A stretch of 32,976 bases of DNA from Sphingomonadales bacterium (GTDB lineage Bacteria > Pseudomonadota > Alphaproteobacteria > Sphingomonadales > Sphingomonadaceae): positions 1 to 32,976 of the forward strand of contig JAFKLT010000080.1 of the NCBI GenBank assembly GCA_017309275.1, in the 5' to 3' direction. The translations under genes and the position numbers were made by a program. Each line of letters opens with the position of its first letter. Position 1 is the stretch's first letter. The notes beneath the pieces are model-generated. The model was not told the DNA's origin. It ran no database searches and was given only the letters and a program-made list of their open reading frames with translations. Shown here one piece after another: positions 2,771-32,976 of this stretch.

Positions 2771-2875
2771 ATTCGCGCTGACGGGGCGGGAGGCGCGTAG
2801 GGCTTTCCTCTGCTTCCCATCGGTCTTATCGCAGCCCGACGCTCTCTTTTTCGCGCCCTGAACAAGGCCTCCATC

Positions 2876-3838
2876 ATGGCAATATCGACCCGGTTGACGC
2901 AGCGCTTCGGTATCGAGCACCCGATTATCAACGCGCCGATGGCCTTTGCCGCGGGCGGCGAGTTGGCGGCGGCGGTCAGTGCCGCGGGCGGGCTGGGGCT
3001 TATCGGTGGCGGCTATGGCGATCCCGCCTGGGTCGAGGCGCAGTTCGATCGGGCCGGAAACACGCCCGTCGGCTGCGGATTCATCGGTTGGAGCCTGGCT
3101 GAAAATCCGGGCCTGCTCGACAGGGTGCTGGCCCGGGCGCCACGGGCGATCTTCCTGTCGTTTGAAACCCCCGACCGCCTGGCCGCGACCGTCCGCGACG
3201 CGGGCGTTCCGCTGATCCATCAGGTGCAGACCGTCGAGGACGCGCGGCGCGCGATCGATCAGGGCGCCGACGTCATCGTCGCCCAGGGAGCCGAAGCGGG
3301 CGGGCATGGCGAAAAGCGCGCGACGATGACGCTGGTGCCCGAGGTGGCGGATCTGCTGGCGGCGAATGCTCCCGATACCCTGCTGTGCGCGGCGGGAGGG
3401 ATCGCCGATGGGCGCGGCGTTGCCGCCAGCCTGATGCTCGGTGCCGACGGCGTGGTCGTCGGTTCGCGGCTATGGGCCTCGAACGAGGCACAGGTTCATC
3501 CGAATATGCACCGGGCCGCGATCGACGCGAGCGGCGACGCCACCATCCGGTCGCAAGTGATGGACATCGTCCGCGGAAAGCTATGGCCCGAGCGCTTCAC
3601 GGCGCGCGTTTTGCGCAACGGCTTCACCGATGAGTTCCACGGACGCGAAGACACGCTGCGGGACCAGGGCGATCGGCTGGGACCGGCCTGGACCCAGGCG
3701 TGGGCCGATGGCGATGTCTCGTTGGCCAATACGTTCGTCGGCGAAGCAACGGGGCTGATCCGTGGAATCGAGCCGGCGGGAAAGATCGTCGCGGATATGA
3801 TCGAACAGGCCGAGGGGCTGTTGACGCGTCATCGCTAG
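2876..3838 (+). CDS. Nitronate monooxygenase-like flavoprotein (NPD family)
   Basis: A 320-residue TIM-barrel FMN enzyme of the 2-nitropropane dioxygenase/nitronate monooxygenase family. Visible hallmarks are the N-terminal P-I-I-N-A-P-M-A, the central A-Q-G-A-E-A-G-G-H-G loop that binds the flavin phosphate and holds the conserved His, and the later A-A-G-G-I-A-D-G-R-G and G-A-D-G-V-V-V-G-S-R phosphate-binding segments. Characterised members oxidise nitronates to carbonyl compounds with release of nitrite, but many homologues have unknown substrates, so the specific reaction is uncertain. It is a single gene on the + strand with no clear operon partner; recQ starts about 50 nt downstream. 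Confidence 0.88.
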   Translation: MAISTRLTQRFGIEHPIINAPMAFAAGGELAAAVSAAGGLGLIGGGYGDPAWVEAQFDRAGNTPVGCGFIGWSLAENPGLLDRVLARAPRAIFLSFETPDRLAATVRDAGVPLIHQVQTVEDARRAIDQGADVIVAQGAEAGGHGEKRATMTLVPEVADLLAANAPDTLLCAAGGIADGRGVAASLMLGADGVVVGSRLWASNEAQVHPNMHRAAIDASGDATIRSQVMDIVRGKLWPERFTARVLRNGFTDEFHGREDTLRDQGDRLGPAWTQAWADGDVSLANTFVGEATGLIRGIEPAGKIVADMIEQAEGLLTRHR

Positions 3839-3885
3839 GAGACGGGTCTTTCCTCTTGGCGGCATCCGCCCTATCGCCCTCCACG

Positions 3886-12000: not shown

Positions 12001-12543
12001 TCATGAAGCGCAGGCGGCCGCGAGCAGGCGCCCGCTTGGCGTCAGGTCGTAGCGGCTTGCCGGCGGGCGCAGGTCGAGTATCTCGCGCGATACCAGTCCA
12101 TGCTTGCCGAGCGCGGTCAGCCCCTGCGACAGCGCGCGCGGCGTCGCGGGAGCGAGCAGGCGCGACAGCGCGTTGAACCGGTCATGCCCCGCCTCGATCC
12201 CGGCGACGAGCGGCAGGCCCCAGCGCGTCGCGGCACCGGGCGCCAGGCCGATCGCATCTTGTGCGGCGGCGATCGTCGCGGCGCGCGCGGCCGCCGCCTT
12301 GCCCGTTTCGGTCAATATATATTCGGGGCGCAGCGGGTGGCCGTGGCCGGGATTGCGCTGCACCCATCCGGTCGCGGCCGCCGCCTCCAGCGTGCGCGCC
12401 AGGCTGTCGCGCGCCAGCCCCAGGCGGTGGACCAGCTCGACGAAGCGTGCACCATTGTGCGCAGCAAGATCGGCGAGCAGCGGCACCAGCCAGCGATGGC
12501 TGCCGAGCGCGACGAGCAGGGGGTCGGGGGTCCTTGACCGCAT
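12001..12543 (-). CDS. Regulator with two tandem HxlR-like winged helices
   Basis: A 180-residue protein. Two segments resemble each other and the HxlR winged-helix family. The first (about residues 14-85) runs H-R-W-L-V-P-L-L-A-D-L through R-F-V-E-L to P-E-Y-I-L-T-E-T-G-K. The second (about 106-175) runs T-R-W-G-L-P-L-V-A-G-I through R-F-N-A-L and L-T-A-L-x-K-H-G-L-V to P-P-A-S-R-Y-D-L-T-P-S-G-R. HxlR proteins are normally about 110 residues with one such domain and act as dimers, so this looks like a covalent pseudo-dimer. It diverges from the VOC-protein gene at 12640 and probably controls it. The leader just upstream of ATG 12543 is unusually AT-rich for this DNA and may hold the operator. 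Confidence 0.83.
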   Translation of the reverse strand: MRSRTPDPLLVALGSHRWLVPLLADLAAHNGARFVELVHRLGLARDSLARTLEAAAATGWVQRNPGHGHPLRPEYILTETGKAAAARAATIAAAQDAIGLAPGAATRWGLPLVAGIEAGHDRFNALSRLLAPATPRALSQGLTALGKHGLVSREILDLRPPASRYDLTPSGRLLAAACAS

Positions 12544-25804: not shown

Positions 25805-26728
25805 ATGAGTGAAGCCGCCATCCGCATCGACGCCGTCTCGAAACTTTATGCCGGGGGCAAGCAGGCGCTCGACAATGTCAGCTTCGACGTACCGCGCGGT
25901 CAGATTTTCGGCCTTCTCGGGCCGAACGGCGCGGGCAAGTCGACGCTGATCAACATCCTGGCGGGGCTGGTCAACAAGACGGCCGGGCATGCGAGCATCT
26001 GGGGCTTCGACATCGACTCCGATCCCCGGAACGCGAAATATTCGATCGGCATCGTGCCGCAGGAGATCGTCTTCGATCCCTTTTTCACGCCATTCGAGAC
26101 GCTGGAGAATCAGGCGGGCCTTTACGGCGTGCCGAAGGACAAGCGGATTTCCGACGCGCTCCTCGCCGCGGTGCACCTCAGCGACAAGCGCGATGCCTAT
26201 GCGCGCACGCTCTCGGGCGGCATGAAGCGCCGCCTGCTGGTTGCGAAGGCGATGGTGCATTCGCCGCCGATCATCGTGCTCGACGAACCGACGGCGGGCG
26301 TCGACATCGAATTGCGCCCGCAGCTTTGGGAATATGTCCAGTCGCTCAACGATCGCGGCGTCACCGTCGTGCTGACGACGCATTATCTGGAAGAGGCCGA
26401 GGAGCTTTGCGATCGCATCGCGATCATCAACCACGGCAAGCTGATCGCGAACAAGCCGACACGCGAACTGGTCGACATGGCGCGCGAGAAGATCGTTGTC
26501 GTGACGCTCGATCAGGATATCGCCGTGCTGCCGTCGCATCCCGCCTTCGACAAGATCGAGCGCGAGGGCGAACGCGGGCTTGCCATCAGCTATAACAAGG
26601 ACCGGATGAACGCGGGCGAGGTACTCGCCGCGGTCAATGCGATGGGCCATGGCATCGTCGACGTCTCGACGCGCGAGGCCGACCTTGAGGATGTGTTCCT
26701 CAACCTGACCCGCGCGGCGAATGGCTGA
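25805..26728 (+). CDS. ABC transporter ATP-binding protein
   Basis: A 307-residue ABC ATPase. Walker A G-P-N-G-A-G-K-S-T is at 39-47, the Q-loop Gln at 86, the signature L-S-G-G-M at 136-140, Walker B I-I-V-L-D-E-P at 156-162 and the H-loop His at 193. The C-terminal extension after about residue 220 is typical of multidrug or ABC-2 type exporters (YadG-like subfamily). The expected ABC-2 permease is not adjacent, because the next gene is on the other strand. The start at 25805 is preferred because of GGAGG about 6 nt upstream. The transported substrate cannot be told. Confidence 0.93.
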   Translation: MSEAAIRIDAVSKLYAGGKQALDNVSFDVPRGQIFGLLGPNGAGKSTLINILAGLVNKTAGHASIWGFDIDSDPRNAKYSIGIVPQEIVFDPFFTPFETLENQAGLYGVPKDKRISDALLAAVHLSDKRDAYARTLSGGMKRRLLVAKAMVHSPPIIVLDEPTAGVDIELRPQLWEYVQSLNDRGVTVVLTTHYLEEAEELCDRIAIINHGKLIANKPTRELVDMAREKIVVVTLDQDIAVLPSHPAFDKIEREGERGLAISYNKDRMNAGEVLAAVNAMGHGIVDVSTREADLEDVFLNLTRAANG

Positions 26729-26743
26729 AGGCTCGCCGAACCC

Positions 26744-27580
26744 CTAGCGGCCGATTGCCTTTCGCGTCAGGCGCGCGGCGACCCCGAAATGGTCGGACGG
26801 ATATTCGCCGTCCGTCGCCTCGCTGCCGATAACTTGCGCGGCAGCGACGGTGAAGTGTGCTGAGTCGGCGAAGATATGATCGATCACGCGCAGCGGGTGG
26901 CCGCGCGCGGGATTGAGCGTGGTCGGCGCGGCCCCCGCGGGCAGCGCCGAGGTGAAGCGCGGCGGCGCCATCGCCGCGAGCCCCGGATCGTCGAGCGGCG
27001 CGTTGAAATCGCCCATGATCACGAGCGGCGTGCCGTCCTGCGGCAGCCAGGCGAACAGGTCGGCGATCTGCTGCGCGCGCACCGCGCCGGCCTCGGGCTG
27101 CCAGGCGAGATGCGCCGTCACGACGTCGACCGGGCCGTTCGCGGTGCGGACGCGTACGCGGATCGCGGTGCGATAGTCCGACAAGGGCTCCAGCTTGCGG
27201 CGCGCGACCTCGATCACCGGCAGCCGCGTCAGGATCGCATTGCCATAGCGGCGCGGCGCGCCCTCGGGCTCGACCGCGACGAAATGGACCGCGGGATAGC
27301 CGAGGTCGCGCGCGATGGTTTCGGCCTGGTTCGGCAGGTCCTTGCCCGAATCCTCCAGCACCTCCTGCAACGCGATGACGTCGGCGTCGGCGGCGCGCAG
27401 CGCGGCGACGAGCAGTGGGAGCCGGGCGGGCCAGTTGCCGCCGGCGTCGTGCCAGATGTTGAAGGTCGCGACACCGATGCCGCGCCCCGCGCCCGCACCG
27501 ATACGATGCGCGCAGGCGGCGAGCGGTAGCACCGCCATTCCGGCCAGCAGCGTGCGCCGGCCAAGTTTCGCTTTGAGCAT
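26744..27580 (-). CDS. EEP-family hydrolase, probable Tat-exported lipoprotein
   Basis: A 278-residue protein of the endonuclease/exonuclease/phosphatase fold: T-F-N-I-W near residue 40, D-V-I-A-L-Q-E-V, V-T-A-H-L-A-W, I-M-G-D-F-N-A-P and a final S-D-H-F-G-V-A-A-R-L. The N-terminus has a twin arginine (R8-R9 followed by T-L-L-A-G) and a lipobox P-L-A-A-C with Cys23, so a membrane-anchored periplasmic lipoprotein exported by Tat is likely. This differs from the cytoplasmic EEP protein at 18376. The start ATG 27580 fits the signal; the longer open frame upstream overlaps nadB antisense and is rejected. It shares a 72-nt divergent spacer with nadB. Confidence 0.88.
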   Translation of the reverse strand: MLKAKLGRRTLLAGMAVLPLAACAHRIGAGAGRGIGVATFNIWHDAGGNWPARLPLLVAALRAADADVIALQEVLEDSGKDLPNQAETIARDLGYPAVHFVAVEPEGAPRRYGNAILTRLPVIEVARRKLEPLSDYRTAIRVRVRTANGPVDVVTAHLAWQPEAGAVRAQQIADLFAWLPQDGTPLVIMGDFNAPLDDPGLAAMAPPRFTSALPAGAAPTTLNPARGHPLRVIDHIFADSAHFTVAAAQVIGSEATDGEYPSDHFGVAARLTRKAIGR

Positions 27581-27613
27581 CCCGATATTTTCCCGTCGCT
27601 GGCGTCGTCGAAC

Positions 27614-27648
27614 CCTCTGTTGCACGCCGCGTTGCTGTGCAACAGAGG
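27614..27648 (+). promoter_or_regulatory. 12-bp inverted repeat containing the nadB ribosome site
   Basis: CCTCTGTTGCAC (27614-27625) and GTGCAACAGAGG (27637-27648) are perfectly complementary with an 11-nt spacer. The right arm contains the nadB Shine-Dalgarno AGAGG, and ATG 27653 follows 4 nt later. In RNA the stem would hide the ribosome site; in DNA the dyad would suit a dimeric repressor. It sits between nadB and the divergent EEP gene. Confidence 0.6.
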
Positions 27649-27652
27649 CGCG

Positions 27653-29230
27653 ATGAGTGAATACGACATCATCATCGTGGGATCGGGCGCGGCCGGGCTG
27701 ACCGCGGCGATCGCGCTCGCCGACCATTGCCGCGTGCTCGTGCTCGCGAAGGGCGAGCTTACCGGCGGCTCGACGGCCTGGGCGCAGGGCGGCATCGCGG
27801 CGGTGCTCGACGCGGGCGACACGTTCGAGAATCATATCGAGGACACGATGGTCGCGGGCGCGGGGCTCAACCGGCGCGAGACGGTCGAATTCGTCGTCGA
27901 GAACGCGCCGCATGCGATCGAGCGGCTGATCGAGATGGGCGTGCCCTTCAACAAGGAGGCCGAGGCGCTTCACCTGACGCGCGAGGGCGGGCATTCGCAC
28001 CGCCGCATCGTCCATGTCGACGACGCGACCGGGTGGGCGGTGCAGGCGGCGCTGCTGAAGACGGCAGAGGCGCATGCGAACATCACGCTGTTGCCGGGCC
28101 AGGCGTGCATCGACCTGATCACCGGTCGGCACGAGGAACGCTATTCGGGATCGGGCCGCGTCTGGGGCGTCTATGCGCTCGACGAGAGCACGGGGACGGT
28201 GCACGCGCATGTCGGTCGCGCGACGATCCTCGCGAGCGGCGGCGCCGGGCGCGTCTATCAATTTTCCACCGCGCCGCGGGGCGCGACGGGTGACGGGATC
28301 GCGATGGCGTGGCGCGCGGGCGCCCGCGTCTCCAACATGGAGATGATGCAGTTCCACCCGACCTGCCTCTATAATCTGGAGGTCAAGAATTTCCTGATTA
28401 CGGAGGCGGTGCGCGGCGAGGGCGGCATATTGAAGCACCCGGTCACCGGGCACCGCTATATGCCCGATTATGACGAACGCGCCGAACTGGCCCCGCGCGA
28501 CGTCGTCGCACGCGCGAACGACGATCAGATCAAGCGCTCGGGCCTGGACTTCGTCCACCTCGACATCAGCCACAAGGACCCCGATTTCGTCGCGGGCCAT
28601 TTCCCGAACATCTATGAAAAGCTGCTGACGCTGGGCATCGACATGACGAAGCAGCCGATCCCGGTCGTGCCCGCGCAGCATTACACCTGTGGCGGCATAT
28701 TGATCGACCTGGCCGGGCGCACCGACCTGCCCGGCCTATATGCCGCGGGCGAGTGCACCGAAAGCGGGTTGCACGGCGCGAACCGCCTGGCGTCGAACAG
28801 CCTGCTCGAATGTTTCGTCTTCGGCGAGGCGGCGGCGAAGGATATCATCGCGCGCTGGGACCAGCTCGACGCGCCGCCGCCGATCCGGCCGTGGGACGAA
28901 AGCCGCGTGACCGATTCGGACGAAGAGGTGGTGATCAAGCAGAACTGGACCGAAATCCGACGCTTCATGTGGAATTATGTCGGTATCGTGCGCACGACCA
29001 AGCGGCTGGAGCGCGCGCAGCACCGGATCAAGATGATGACCGGCGAGATCGAGGATTATTACGGCCATTTCCGCGTCACGACCGATCTGATCGAACTGCG
29101 TAACCTGCTGCAATGCGCCGACCTGATCGTGAAGAGCGCGCTGCACCGCAAGGAAAGCCGCGGGCTGCACTATACGCTCGATTATCCCGCCTTGCTGCCG
29201 GAGGCGGTCGACACGGTGCTGGTGCCCTGA
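27653..29230 (+). CDS. nadB: L-aspartate oxidase (NAD biosynthesis)
   Basis: A 525-residue FAD enzyme that oxidises L-aspartate to iminoaspartate, the first step of quinolinate and NAD synthesis. The FAD motif G-S-G-A-A-G is at 10-15. Family segments H-L-T-R-E-G-G-H-S-H-R-R, F-H-P-T-C-L-Y, E-A-V-R-G-E-G-G and Y-T-C-G-G are present, as is the G-L-H-G-A-N-R-L-A-S-N-S-L-L-E stretch near the active site. The same flavoprotein family includes fumarate reductase, but the H-S-H-R-R and length favour NadB. nadA and nadC are not next to it. AGAGG upstream supports ATG 27653, and this site lies in an inverted repeat that may control expression. Confidence 0.94.
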   Translation: MSEYDIIIVGSGAAGLTAAIALADHCRVLVLAKGELTGGSTAWAQGGIAAVLDAGDTFENHIEDTMVAGAGLNRRETVEFVVENAPHAIERLIEMGVPFNKEAEALHLTREGGHSHRRIVHVDDATGWAVQAALLKTAEAHANITLLPGQACIDLITGRHEERYSGSGRVWGVYALDESTGTVHAHVGRATILASGGAGRVYQFSTAPRGATGDGIAMAWRAGARVSNMEMMQFHPTCLYNLEVKNFLITEAVRGEGGILKHPVTGHRYMPDYDERAELAPRDVVARANDDQIKRSGLDFVHLDISHKDPDFVAGHFPNIYEKLLTLGIDMTKQPIPVVPAQHYTCGGILIDLAGRTDLPGLYAAGECTESGLHGANRLASNSLLECFVFGEAAAKDIIARWDQLDAPPPIRPWDESRVTDSDEEVVIKQNWTEIRRFMWNYVGIVRTTKRLERAQHRIKMMTGEIEDYYGHFRVTTDLIELRNLLQCADLIVKSALHRKESRGLHYTLDYPALLPEAVDTVLVP

Positions 29231-29297: not shown

Positions 29298-29732
29298 CTA
29301 AAGTGTCGCGACGATCGCCGCGACGACCAGGCCCCACGCCAGGATCAGGACGGGCAGCATCAGCACCTGTGCGACTGCCCCCGCACCGCCGAGGTGCCCC
29401 GTGTGCGTCACCACGCCGTCGTGCATGAAGCGGCTCCAGCTCGGCGGCTTTGCGCCATGATCGGGCTTCATGCGCACCCACATCGCGGGGGTGCCGAACG
29501 CCATGATGATATAGATCGAAAAGATCGCCATCGGGATCGCCAGCCCCTTGTCGGCGAAAGTCGCGGCCATCACGCCCAGAAAGGCGAAATAGAGCGCGAC
29601 CGTCGCGGCAAACAGCCCGGTCGGCAGGTCGAAGCTGCGGACGACCCGAACGCTGTGGTCGGGCAGGATGGCGGCGAGCGGTGCAGGCGCATCGACACGC
29701 TGAAAGGCGGCGGCGGGAATATGCTTGCTCAT
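29298..29732 (-). CDS. Small membrane protein of unknown function
   Basis: A 144-residue protein I do not recognise. An N-terminal soluble stretch of about 35 residues precedes three hydrophobic helices: roughly 39-60 (L-F-A-A-T-V-A-L-Y-F-A-F-L-G-V), 64-87 (A-I-P-M-A-I-F-S-I-Y-I-I-M-A-F-G) and 118-144 (V-A-Q-V-L-M-L-P-V-L-I-L-A-W-G-L). A loop between the last two helices contains two histidines and a tryptophan. It is likely an inner-membrane protein. It is convergent with nadB and lies 79 nt downstream of the chimeric gene on the same strand. Confidence 0.78.
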   Translation of the reverse strand: MSKHIPAAAFQRVDAPAPLAAILPDHSVRVVRSFDLPTGLFAATVALYFAFLGVMAATFADKGLAIPMAIFSIYIIMAFGTPAMWVRMKPDHGAKPPSWSRFMHDGVVTHTGHLGGAGAVAQVLMLPVLILAWGLVVAAIVATL

Positions 29733-29811
29733 GATCGGGCTCCTTCGATGAGCCCGTCATGCGCCGATTCGTCGCCTCAAGCTTTGACGTCGATCAACAA
29801 GCGTGCGTGGC

Positions 29812-31062
29812 TCAGCCGCCGATGCCGAGCAGCCGCCCGACGAAGATCAGCGCGATCCCGCCGATGATCGAGGCAAGGCAGCCCGCGCGATTGAAATCGG
29901 CCTGGCCGCGCGTGGTCACCAGTCCGGCGAGCAGCGAGCCGCCGATGCCGAGCAGGATCGTGGCGATCCATCCCATCTGCACCGCGCCGGGACCGGTTTG
30001 CGGTGGCGTCGACCACTTAAGGTAGTCGGCATGAAGCTGCTTCGTCTGTTCGGCCCATGCCGGAGCTGTCTTCGGCTTGCGGCTCGAGAAGGCTTGGGCA
30101 AAGGCTGCGGGCGAGGCATTGATGGCAAGCGTCGGACGATAGACGCGGCCAAGTTCGCTGGTATCTGGATGAATGTGGACAAGCTGCTGATCGGGATACG
30201 GGCTCTTGAGCAGCGTGTAGTCCGATGACGGCATCTCGCCGAAGCGGCCGCCGACGAGCAGGACGAGATCGGAGCCCTTGATGTAGTCGCCGAGCTTCGG
30301 GTTGATGCCGATGCCGACATCGCCGGCATAGTTCTCGTCAAGATGGTCGAACAGCATCTGGCGGCGGAACTCGACGCCGACAGGCAGCGACCAGTTGCGG
30401 GCGATTTCTTGCATGTCCGCTACGGCCTGTTCGCCCCATCGGGTGCCGCCGAGAATGGCGATAGGGCGCTTGGCCTTGGCAAGCAGCGTTTCGAACTGGG
30501 CAAGCTCGGCTTCGCCGGGCCGGGTCTCGACCGGAGCCGAAGGCAGCGCTGCAGGTGCGTCGACGAGGCTGGTCAACATGTCTTCCGGCAAGGCGATGAC
30601 GACCGGGCCGGGGCGGCCGGAGGTCGCTACCGAGAAAGCACGGGTTAGGATTTCGGGGATGCGGGCAGCATCCTCGATCTCCGTCGCCCATTTTGCGATA
30701 GGGCCGAAGAAGGCGCGGTAGTCCACTTCCTGGAAGGCTTCGCGCTCGCGGGCCTTCTGGGCGATTTGGCCGATGAACAGGATCATCGGGATGGAATCCT
30801 GGCGGGCAATATGAATGCCCGGCGAGGCGTTGGTTGCGCCGGGTCCGCGGGTGACGAAGCAGATGCCGGGTTTGCCGGTGAGGCGGCCGTGGCAGTCAGC
30901 CATCATCGCTGCGCCGCCTTCCTGCCGGCAGACGACGGTTTCGATCTTCGAATCGTGCAGCGCATCGAGGACGGCGAGATAGGATTCGCCCGGCACGCAG
31001 AACACGCGGTTGACGCCGTTGGCTTCCAGAGCGTCGACGATCAGTTGTCCGCCGGTTTTCAT
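29812..31062 (-). pseudogene. Truncated TPP-dependent enzyme fused to the C-terminal half of a GlsB/YeaQ-type protein
   Basis: A 416-residue open frame made of two unrelated parts. Residues 1 to about 363 are the N-terminal pyrimidine-binding domain (catalytic Glu48 in C-R-Q-E-G-G-A-A-M-M-A) and central domain of an acetolactate-synthase-like TPP enzyme, as far as G-P-G-A-V-Q-M. The C-terminal domain that holds the G-D-G...N-N diphosphate/Mg motif is absent. From G364 the sequence becomes hydrophobic, with G-W-I-A-T-I-L-L-G-I-G-G-S-L-L-A-G-L and S-I-I-G-G-I-A-L-I-F-V-G-R-L-L-G. This is the C-terminal part of a GlsB/YeaQ/YmgE transglycosylase-associated membrane protein that lacks its first helix. 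Neither half should be functional as a full enzyme or membrane protein. The junction is near 29970-29976. The start overlaps the CoA transferase stop (ATGA). Confidence 0.85.
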
Positions 31063-32231
31063 GATTTCGTCTGCTCCAGTTCGGCAAGGATTTCTCTGGT
31101 GTGCTCGCCAAGCCGGGGCGAGGGGCGATTGTAGGTCAGCGGCGTCTCAGACAAAACGATGGGGGCACGCACGGACGGCAAAGCGTTGTCGTCGCCGTCG
31201 TCGAGATCGAGGCGCATGCCGCGCGCGACGACCTGCGGGTCGGCGAAGGTCTGGCCGATGTCGTTGATGGGGCTGGCCGGCACATGCGCTTTTTCCAGCG
31301 CCGCGAGAATGTCGTCGCGTTTGCGGTCGGCAAGGGCTTCGACCATGTGGTCGTGCAGGGCGACGCGGTTGGCGACGCGGGCCGAATTGTTGATGAAGGC
31401 CGGGTCGTCGGCCAGATCCTCGCGGCCGATGATGGCGCAGAATTTGCGGAACTGGTTGTCGTTGCCGGTGGCGAGGATGAAGTGACCGTCCTTGACCGGC
31501 AAAACCTCGTATGGCGCGATGTTGGGATGCGCATTGCCCATCCGCGTCGGTGGCGTGCCTGAGACGAGATAGTTCAGGTTCTGGTTGGCGAGGACCGAAA
31601 CCTGGGCATCGAACAGCGCCATGTCGACATGCTGGCCTTGCCCGGTCGCCTCGGCATGGCGAAGCGCTGCCTGGATGGCGATGACGGAATAGAGGCCGGT
31701 GAAGATGTCGGTGACGGCGACGCCGACCTTTTGCGGCTCGCCATCGGCGGCACCGGTGATCGACATCAGGCCGGACATGCCCTGCACGATGAAGTCGTAG
31801 CCGGCGCGCGGCGCATACGGCCCGTTCTGGCCGAAGCCGGTGATGGAGCAGTAGACGAGGCGTGGGTTCACGGCCTTCAGGCTCTCGTAGTCGAGGCCGT
31901 ATTTCTTGAGGCCGCCGAGCTTGAAGTTCTCGATCAAGACATCGGCGCCGGCGGCGAGCTTGCGGATGGTCTCAGCACCTTCCGGGGTCGAGAAGTCGAC
32001 GACGATGGAGCGCTTGCCGCGATTGCAGGAATGGTAATAGGCGGCGGAGAGGTTTTCGCCGTCCTTGCCGGTGACGAAGGGCGGCCCCCATTTGCGGGTA
32101 TCGTCGCCGTCGGGGCTTTCCACCTTGATGACGTCGGCACCCAGATCGGCCAGCAACTGCCCGGCCCAAGGACCGGCGAGGATGCGGGCAAGTTCAATTA
32201 CGCGGACGCCTTTGAGCGGAGCTTCGGTCAT
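31059..32231 (-). CDS. CaiB/BaiF-type (class III) CoA transferase
   Basis: A 390-residue class III CoA transferase. It begins L-K-G-V-R-V-I-E-L-A-R-I-L-A-G-P, continues with L-L-A-D-L-G-A-D-V-I-K-V-E and the N-R-G-K-R-S-I segment, and has the G-Y-D-F-I-V-Q-G-M-S-G motif whose Asp (about 146) corresponds to the catalytic Asp of the family. It moves CoA from one acid to another, but the substrate acids are unknown. It overlaps the TPP-enzyme gene by 4 nt and lies 93 nt downstream of the hydrolase gene. In intact form the operon would couple CoA transfer to a TPP-dependent lyase or decarboxylase. Start ATG 32231 is chosen because the family sequence begins there; the open frame goes on upstream without support. 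Confidence 0.92.
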   Translation of the reverse strand: MTEAPLKGVRVIELARILAGPWAGQLLADLGADVIKVESPDGDDTRKWGPPFVTGKDGENLSAAYYHSCNRGKRSIVVDFSTPEGAETIRKLAAGADVLIENFKLGGLKKYGLDYESLKAVNPRLVYCSITGFGQNGPYAPRAGYDFIVQGMSGLMSITGAADGEPQKVGVAVTDIFTGLYSVIAIQAALRHAEATGQGQHVDMALFDAQVSVLANQNLNYLVSGTPPTRMGNAHPNIAPYEVLPVKDGHFILATGNDNQFRKFCAIIGREDLADDPAFINNSARVANRVALHDHMVEALADRKRDDILAALEKAHVPASPINDIGQTFADPQVVARGMRLDLDDGDDNALPSVRAPIVLSETPLTYNRPSPRLGEHTREILAELEQTKS

Positions 32232-32324
32232 GGATTTCTGCGCCGTTGGTCGAGAGGATAGACGTGCTCTACCAACCCGTAGTGGCGATGTCACGGACCT
32301 TGCGCTGGGCCAGCAGCGGAGGCG

Positions 32325-32976
32325 CTATTTCAGCACGCCATCCAGCCATGCGGCGAAGTCGGCCATGACCTGATCGCGGTTGATCTCGTTCAAGCTTTCG
32401 TGCCGTGTTTGCGGGTAAATGGTTGAAACGAGATTCGAAAAGCCCATCCGGCGCATGCGCTTGGCCAGATGCTCGACCGCCTTGCCGCCGTCGGTCGCGG
32501 GGTCGTTCTCACCGCCGACGAGATTAAACGGCAGGGCCTTGCGGACGGCGGCAAAGTTGGCGTCGTCTGCTCCATCGAAGATGAAGCCGAACAGGTCGCG
32601 CCACAGCGATACCGAAGCTGGCCACCCGCAGAGCGGGTCGGCGATGTATTTGTCGACTTCGGCGGAATCGCGAGACAGCCAGTCGAACAAGGTTCGGTGG
32701 CCGGCAATCTTGCGGCCCCATGCGCCGAACGTCAAGCGCGGCAAGAGCTGTGACGGGACATCAGAGCCGAGCCGGAAGCGCTCCCAGGCGAGGATGGCGA
32801 GTGCGGCGCGACCGGGCAGGCCGGCGGTGAAGTTGGCGTTCCACACTGCGGCGGCGTGGATGCGCGCGGAATGCCGGAGCACGAAGTTGAGCGCAATGAG
32901 GCCGCCCATGGAATGGCCGAAGGCGATGACAGGCAGGCCCGGATGGCTTTTCGCGATGAGGTCGTGGACGGCGACA
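32325..32976 (-). CDS. Alpha/beta hydrolase (serine aminopeptidase S33/monoacylglycerol lipase type), partial
   Basis: The gene enters from beyond the right edge, so its 5' part is missing. The last 217 residues are visible. Near the window edge the nucleophile elbow is G-H-S-M-G-G-L (G-x-S-x-G), preceded by a strand V-I-A-F. Further on N-L-V-G-G-E-N-D-P-A holds the acid residue and T-R-H-E-S-L-N-E the catalytic His. This order fits lysophospholipase/monoacylglycerol lipase-like hydrolases (S33-type). An internal ATG at 32909 is not the start, since the elbow begins before it. It is the first of three genes on the same strand with the CoA transferase and the TPP enzyme. Substrate is unknown. 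Confidence 0.88.
   Translation of the reverse strand, partial: VAVHDLIAKSHPGLPVIAFGHSMGGLIALNFVLRHSARIHAAAVWNANFTAGLPGRAALAILAWERFRLGSDVPSQLLPRLTFGAWGRKIAGHRTLFDWLSRDSAEVDKYIADPLCGWPASVSLWRDLFGFIFDGADDANFAAVRKALPFNLVGGENDPATDGGKAVEHLAKRMRRMGFSNLVSTIYPQTRHESLNEINRDQVMADFAAWLDGVLK

Follow-up and report, generated by a model that had tools for sequence, protein, structure and literature searches.

An in-frame fusion of a thiamine pyrophosphate enzyme and a GlsB/YeaQ-like protein in a Sphingomonadales genome is most likely an inter-genome assembly chimera

The window analysed here is the whole of contig C86 (32976 bases), from a genome of 121 contigs, and its main features are given in Table 1. 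The minus strand of positions 29812-31062 contains an ORF of 416 amino acids that is open across the joint of two genes, with no internal stop. The Pfam scan places TPP_enzyme_N at residues 3-116 (E 4.1e-38) and TPP_enzyme_M at residues 192-324 (E 3.4e-23) and finds no match to TPP_enzyme_C (PF02775) in this ORF at E 0.001. In the same frame, the ORF then ends in 59 residues that form the C-terminal part of a GlsB/YeaQ-like small membrane protein. The intact homologue of Mesorhizobium sp. Root552 (L077) is complete at 549 amino acids and carries TPP_enzyme_C at residues 383-529; the C-terminal TPP-binding domain required of a functional acetolactate-synthase-like TPP enzyme is missing from the ORF of the window. 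The enzyme part resembles the NCBIfam family NF006052 (PRK08199), a thiamine pyrophosphate protein related to acetolactate synthase, and scores above the family cut-off (565 bits against 539, profile positions 8-376), whereas the intact Root552 homologue reaches 914 bits against the same cut-off. Unlike a full member of the family, the ORF has no match to profile positions 377-559, which would be the site of the C-terminal TPP-binding domain. That the truncated ORF still scores above the cut-off has no bearing on the joint.

Table 1. Positions of the native-side, joint and Mesorhizobium-like features in the window
Feature	Position	Strand	Remarks
nadB (L-aspartate oxidase)	27653..29230	+	FAD_binding_2 and Succ_DH_flav_C; start codon chosen by eye; native-side marker
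Native 3' part of glsB/YeaQ-like gene	29812..29992	-	59 residues and stop; first 22 codons missing
Joint fitting both parents	29972-29992	-	21 bases, PGAVQMG, same frame on both sides
5' part of TPP-enzyme gene, Mesorhizobium-like	29993..31062	-	N-terminal and middle domains; C-terminal TPP-binding domain missing
Family III (CaiB/BaiF) CoA-transferase gene, Mesorhizobium-like	31059..32294	-	CoA_transf_3, E 7.9e-134; inside the 99.73% match
Alpha/beta-hydrolase gene, Mesorhizobium-like	32325..32976	-	Hydrolase_4, E 6.2e-25; inside the 99.73% match; cut by contig end

Of the 40 relatives searched, 16 have a small protein to which this end of the ORF (residues 358-416) is 76-88% identical, and all 16 fall among the 24 relatives of the same genus. 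The corresponding DNA is 79-87% identical in 16/16 same-genus loci fetched. The native protein has 81 amino acids, and a 22-residue N-terminal segment, which in the relative L036 starts with MINIIGAIISGLIIGALARFFY, is missing from the window copy. Native proteins from 13 of the 16 relatives (all except L045, L050, and L051) were aligned and scanned against Pfam, and the alignment shows the native product to be short, glycine-rich, and hydrophobic. All 13 match Transgly_assoc (PF04226) at E values up to 0.1, and the best of them (E 6.6e-5, 23.5 bits) lies just under the curated cut-off of 25.3; the window fragment alone gives E 0.015 and 16 bits. The native parent protein therefore matches the profile of the family that includes GlsB and YeaQ, but at a score just below the curated cut-off, and the window copy departs further from the family in having lost its first 22 residues. 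On these profile scores the GlsB/YeaQ label for the putative small membrane protein is weak but consistent. The initial annotation had described the frame as a chimera of a TPP enzyme without its TPP/Mg domain and a GlsB-type membrane protein without its N-terminal helix. The open ORF, its domains and 59-residue end, the TPP_enzyme_C domain present in the Root552 homologue alone of the two, and the 81-residue native form bear out this description, with the GlsB label only as far as these scores go.

For the native side of the contig, loci were fetched from all 16 same-genus genomes that show the glsB part. The order nadB-glsB is kept in every one of them; strains with an intact glsB at this locus are what the initial annotation had proposed to look for. 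Alignments over nadB show 84-90% DNA identity in all 16 loci, and DNA homology to the window ends at 29991 or 29992. Positions 1-29992 are collinear with the relative G007, with a largest gap of about 1.1 kb (2780-3844); they are collinear with the relative G016 as well, but with gaps that are more numerous and larger, e.g. 26714-27664. In the plasmid collection the native flank is best matched by two records, from Qipengyuania citrea, which belongs to the order Sphingomonadales, and Sphingomonas parapaucimobilis, at 75-77% identity, and nadB is annotated beneath the best of these matches. Positions 1-29992 are thus probably chromosome of one Alphaproteobacterium of the order Sphingomonadales.

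Two further ORFs lie in this part of the window. Between nadB and glsB, a 144-residue ORF on the minus strand (29298-29732) matches nothing in Pfam or NCBIfam at E 0.001, and the stretch containing it (29299-29992) is 80.6% identical to L036 at the DNA level. The two flanking genes are almost adjacent in seven of the 16 relatives (L037, L039, L044-L047, and L051) and about 150 bases apart in L050, and another seven (L038, L040-L043, L048, and L049) have a gap of approximately 490-905 bases with no DNA match. The nadB-glsB interval is, as far as these alignments indicate, a variable site flanked by two conserved genes. The minus-strand ORF at 26744-28681 (645 amino acids) runs antisense to the first part of nadB and is protein-like only in its C-terminal part, which is presumably of the endonuclease/exonuclease/phosphatase type; the true start of this ORF probably lies far downstream of the listed one.

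The remaining part of the window has a different affinity. Positions 29972-32976 are identical at 2997 of 3005 bases (99.73%, eight differences) to MKRZ01000068.1 (L076), a scaffold of the metagenome-assembled Mesorhizobium sp. 61-13 with the label SCNpilot_expt_1000_bf. The eight mismatches indicate that the Mesorhizobium strain of the window is not identical to the deposited one. Over the same stretch the identity is 90.5% to Mesorhizobium sp. Root552 and 77-82% to the next three loci. Mesorhizobium belongs to the order Hyphomicrobiales. In the scaffold of strain 61-13 the TPP-enzyme gene continues through the position of the joint until the scaffold ends, 506 codons into the frame. For the wider comparison 80 loci were kept of 113 relatives found; 76 of these 80 cover at least 80% of 29992-32976, and the other four (L122, L132, L144, and L149) cover 57-75%. 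In all 80 the foreign-side homology extends left no further than 29964, and in three of them it starts only at 30002-30097. The GC content of the last 3 kb is within the range of the remaining window. Third-position GC is 0.77-0.80 on the foreign side compared with 0.87 in nadB, which agrees with a foreign origin and decides nothing, and composition was rejected as deciding evidence. Searched separately, as the initial annotation had also suggested, the two halves of the ORF lead to different lineages, the enzyme half to Mesorhizobium by DNA and the small-protein half to the window's own genus by protein.

The TPP enzyme (NF006052), the family III CoA-transferase, and the alpha/beta-hydrolase are grouped together in Mesorhizobium and its kin (L076-L155), and the same stretch of Rhizobium leguminosarum has an annotated DMT transporter. 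A few of the Mesorhizobium-side loci also match the window briefly and separately at another place, around 25864-26458. In the plasmid collection, only one of 590 records for the foreign side falls in the 90-95% identity band, and the best-covering record is 71.8% identical. Several other sources for the foreign stretch were considered and rejected. A TPP paralogue within the genome itself is not the source, since the five further matches in this genome reach only 28-37% identity. The edge of a mobile element was rejected because the stretch is kept together across Mesorhizobium and its kin, as the coverage in 76 of the 80 loci shows, and Pfam finds no transposase or integrase among its three genes. 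The Mesorhizobium scaffold is not itself the chimeric sequence, as the same 3 kb is carried by five complete chromosomes at 86-100% coverage.

The identity to the Mesorhizobium scaffold extends to 29972 and the homology to the window's genus to 29992, leaving an overlap of 21 bases that fits both parents. The initial annotation had placed the joint at a point at about 29970-29976; that two genes are cut there was confirmed, and the joint proved to be this 21-base stretch and not a point. On the gene strand the word reads TCCCGGCGCGGTGCAGATGGG and is exact in the Mesorhizobium parent. Among the 16 same-genus relatives it is exact in none, with a nearest match of 20 of 21 bases, and the full 21-mer would be present in the native glsB of the window's own species. 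The fusion is in frame because these 21 bases read PGAVQMG in one frame in both genes, so that no selection is needed for an in-frame product. By calculation, approximately 70 shared 21-mers are expected by chance between two such genomes, assuming that these measure 5.1 and 6.3 Mb with 65% and 63% GC. Such words being plentiful, a joint on a shared 21-mer is the outcome expected of a graph crossing. A probe of 301 bases across the joint was compared with 80 genomes of the genus, the window's own included, and none of the 79 others gave a joint-spanning match. The native half of the probe was matched by 51 of the 79, in each case stopping at probe base 150 or 151, while 21 gave no match and seven only matches of 25-46 bases; the sole match to the foreign half in these 79 genomes was 24 bases on a different contig of one of them (G078). 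The same junction is also absent from the 80 kept Mesorhizobium-side loci. The check for the same fusion in other genomes, another of those put forward in the initial annotation, thus turned up no second case among the 79.

The missing continuation of the native locus was located on contig C14. The last 400 bases of this contig are the end of an M20 peptidase gene with a match in 16/16 relative loci, and the contig end maps 10 bases upstream of the glsB start in 15 of the 16; the exception is L049, where the M20 gene lies about 550 bases from glsB and does not adjoin it. C14 terminates at base 12246, 10 bases before the expected glsB start, and with L036 as reference 74 native bases are absent from both C86 and C14. 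The final 348 bases of C14 are single-copy in the genome, indicating that C14 was not ended by a repeat present elsewhere. The native continuation is therefore found on another contig that stops near the joint, the pattern expected of an assembly chimera. The two sides of C86 come from different lineages, and each stays collinear with the one it belongs to as far as the joint, which is likewise the pattern of a chimera.

We put the probability that the fusion ORF belongs to a contig chimeric between two genomes, whether the assembler or the library preparation produced it, at about 93%. The contig would derive from one Alphaproteobacterium over positions 1-29992 and then from a co-occurring Mesorhizobium for 3 kb. 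A 21-base word of glsB apparently coincides with a word in the TPP-enzyme gene of this Mesorhizobium, and at this word the assembler, or a template switch in library preparation, would have switched genomes and continued into Mesorhizobium, leaving the remainder of the native locus, the M20 peptidase gene and beyond, stranded on C14. What is directly observed is that the sides differ in origin, where the joint lies, that the two homologies overlap by 21 bases, and where C14 ends; that the genomes crossed in software or in the library, and not in a cell, is the likely interpretation of these observations. Among the failures of metagenome assembly that the accessible text of PMC7299287 describes are chimeric contigs arising from linked k-mer graphs, and the same text gives idba_ud as a de Bruijn assembler. 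The present case shares with the chimeras described in that text its collinear sides and a continuation elsewhere, and its joint lies on a short word that fits both parents. It differs from the typical one in that the joint lies inside two coding frames of the same phase, and for this reason the contig chimera resembles a gene fusion. The SCNpilot label of the Mesorhizobium scaffold would refer to a thiocyanate bioreactor, judging from the paper on the SCN pilot bioreactors (PMC5458468). On the strength of the 99.73% match, the genome of the window may itself come from a metagenome, or from a bioreactor of this kind. According to the accessible part of that paper, idba_ud was the assembler of two 'solids' datasets, whose reads had been trimmed to 150 bases; the scaffold label denotes a dataset other than the 'solids' datasets given there, and the accessible main text names neither Mesorhizobium nor Sphingopyxis. 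In consortia derived from mine tailings, a Mesorhizobium and a Sphingomonadales species are both among the network hubs in the accessible text of PMC10409787, indicating that the two can co-occur.

A recent real transfer, in which at least 3 kb of Mesorhizobium chromosome recombined into glsB via the 21-base microhomology to give an in-frame fusion with its far edge unassembled, is in our estimate very improbable. In its favor, the scaffold match of 99.73% falls short of full identity, and a microhomology of 21 bases could serve recombination in a cell too. However, a real insertion should carry on in a further contig or leave Mesorhizobium DNA at the end of C14, and the searches made revealed neither. 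The end of C14 is native and contains no Mesorhizobium DNA, the foreign 3 kb has no second near-identical copy in the genome, and for the next 4.1 kb of MKRZ01000068.1 beyond the window end there is nothing near-identical in the genome either, the longest match being 74% over about 1.5 kb and the short pieces reaching at most 87%. The three foreign-side genes include no integrase or transposase by Pfam, and the lack of the join in the 79 other genomes of the genus argues against a transfer as well. An established fused gene, i.e. a membrane-tethered TPP-enzyme fragment under selection, has the frame open through the joint in its favor but can practically be dismissed, given the missing C-terminal TPP-binding domain, the confinement of the junction to this one genome among all those compared, and halves that match intact genes of different orders at 99.7% (DNA) and 76-88% (protein). 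The initial annotation, too, had held a functional membrane-tethered enzyme to be the less likely reading. Its overall interpretation stands as far as two unrelated genes joined in frame, each of them cut, are concerned. The recombination or insertion edge that it gave as the likely cause is not supported in view of the two orders, the near-identical scaffold, the 21-base joint, and the break at C14, and an assembly error, which it had named only as what would refute it, is the alternative that these observations favor.

Most likely the fusion is an artefact of the assembly rather than a new protein. If the contig is indeed chimeric, uses of this genome's gene content should omit the last 3 kb of the contig, whose TPP-enzyme part, CoA-transferase, and hydrolase would then be Mesorhizobium genes. 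An apparent in-frame gene fusion can arise where two genomes cross at a coding word of about 20 bases, which calls for caution, and such a crossing is possible in a genome with good scores; the values of this one, 99.99% completeness and 1.51% contamination, give no sign of a chimeric contig end. Other contig ends of the genome may merit the same check.
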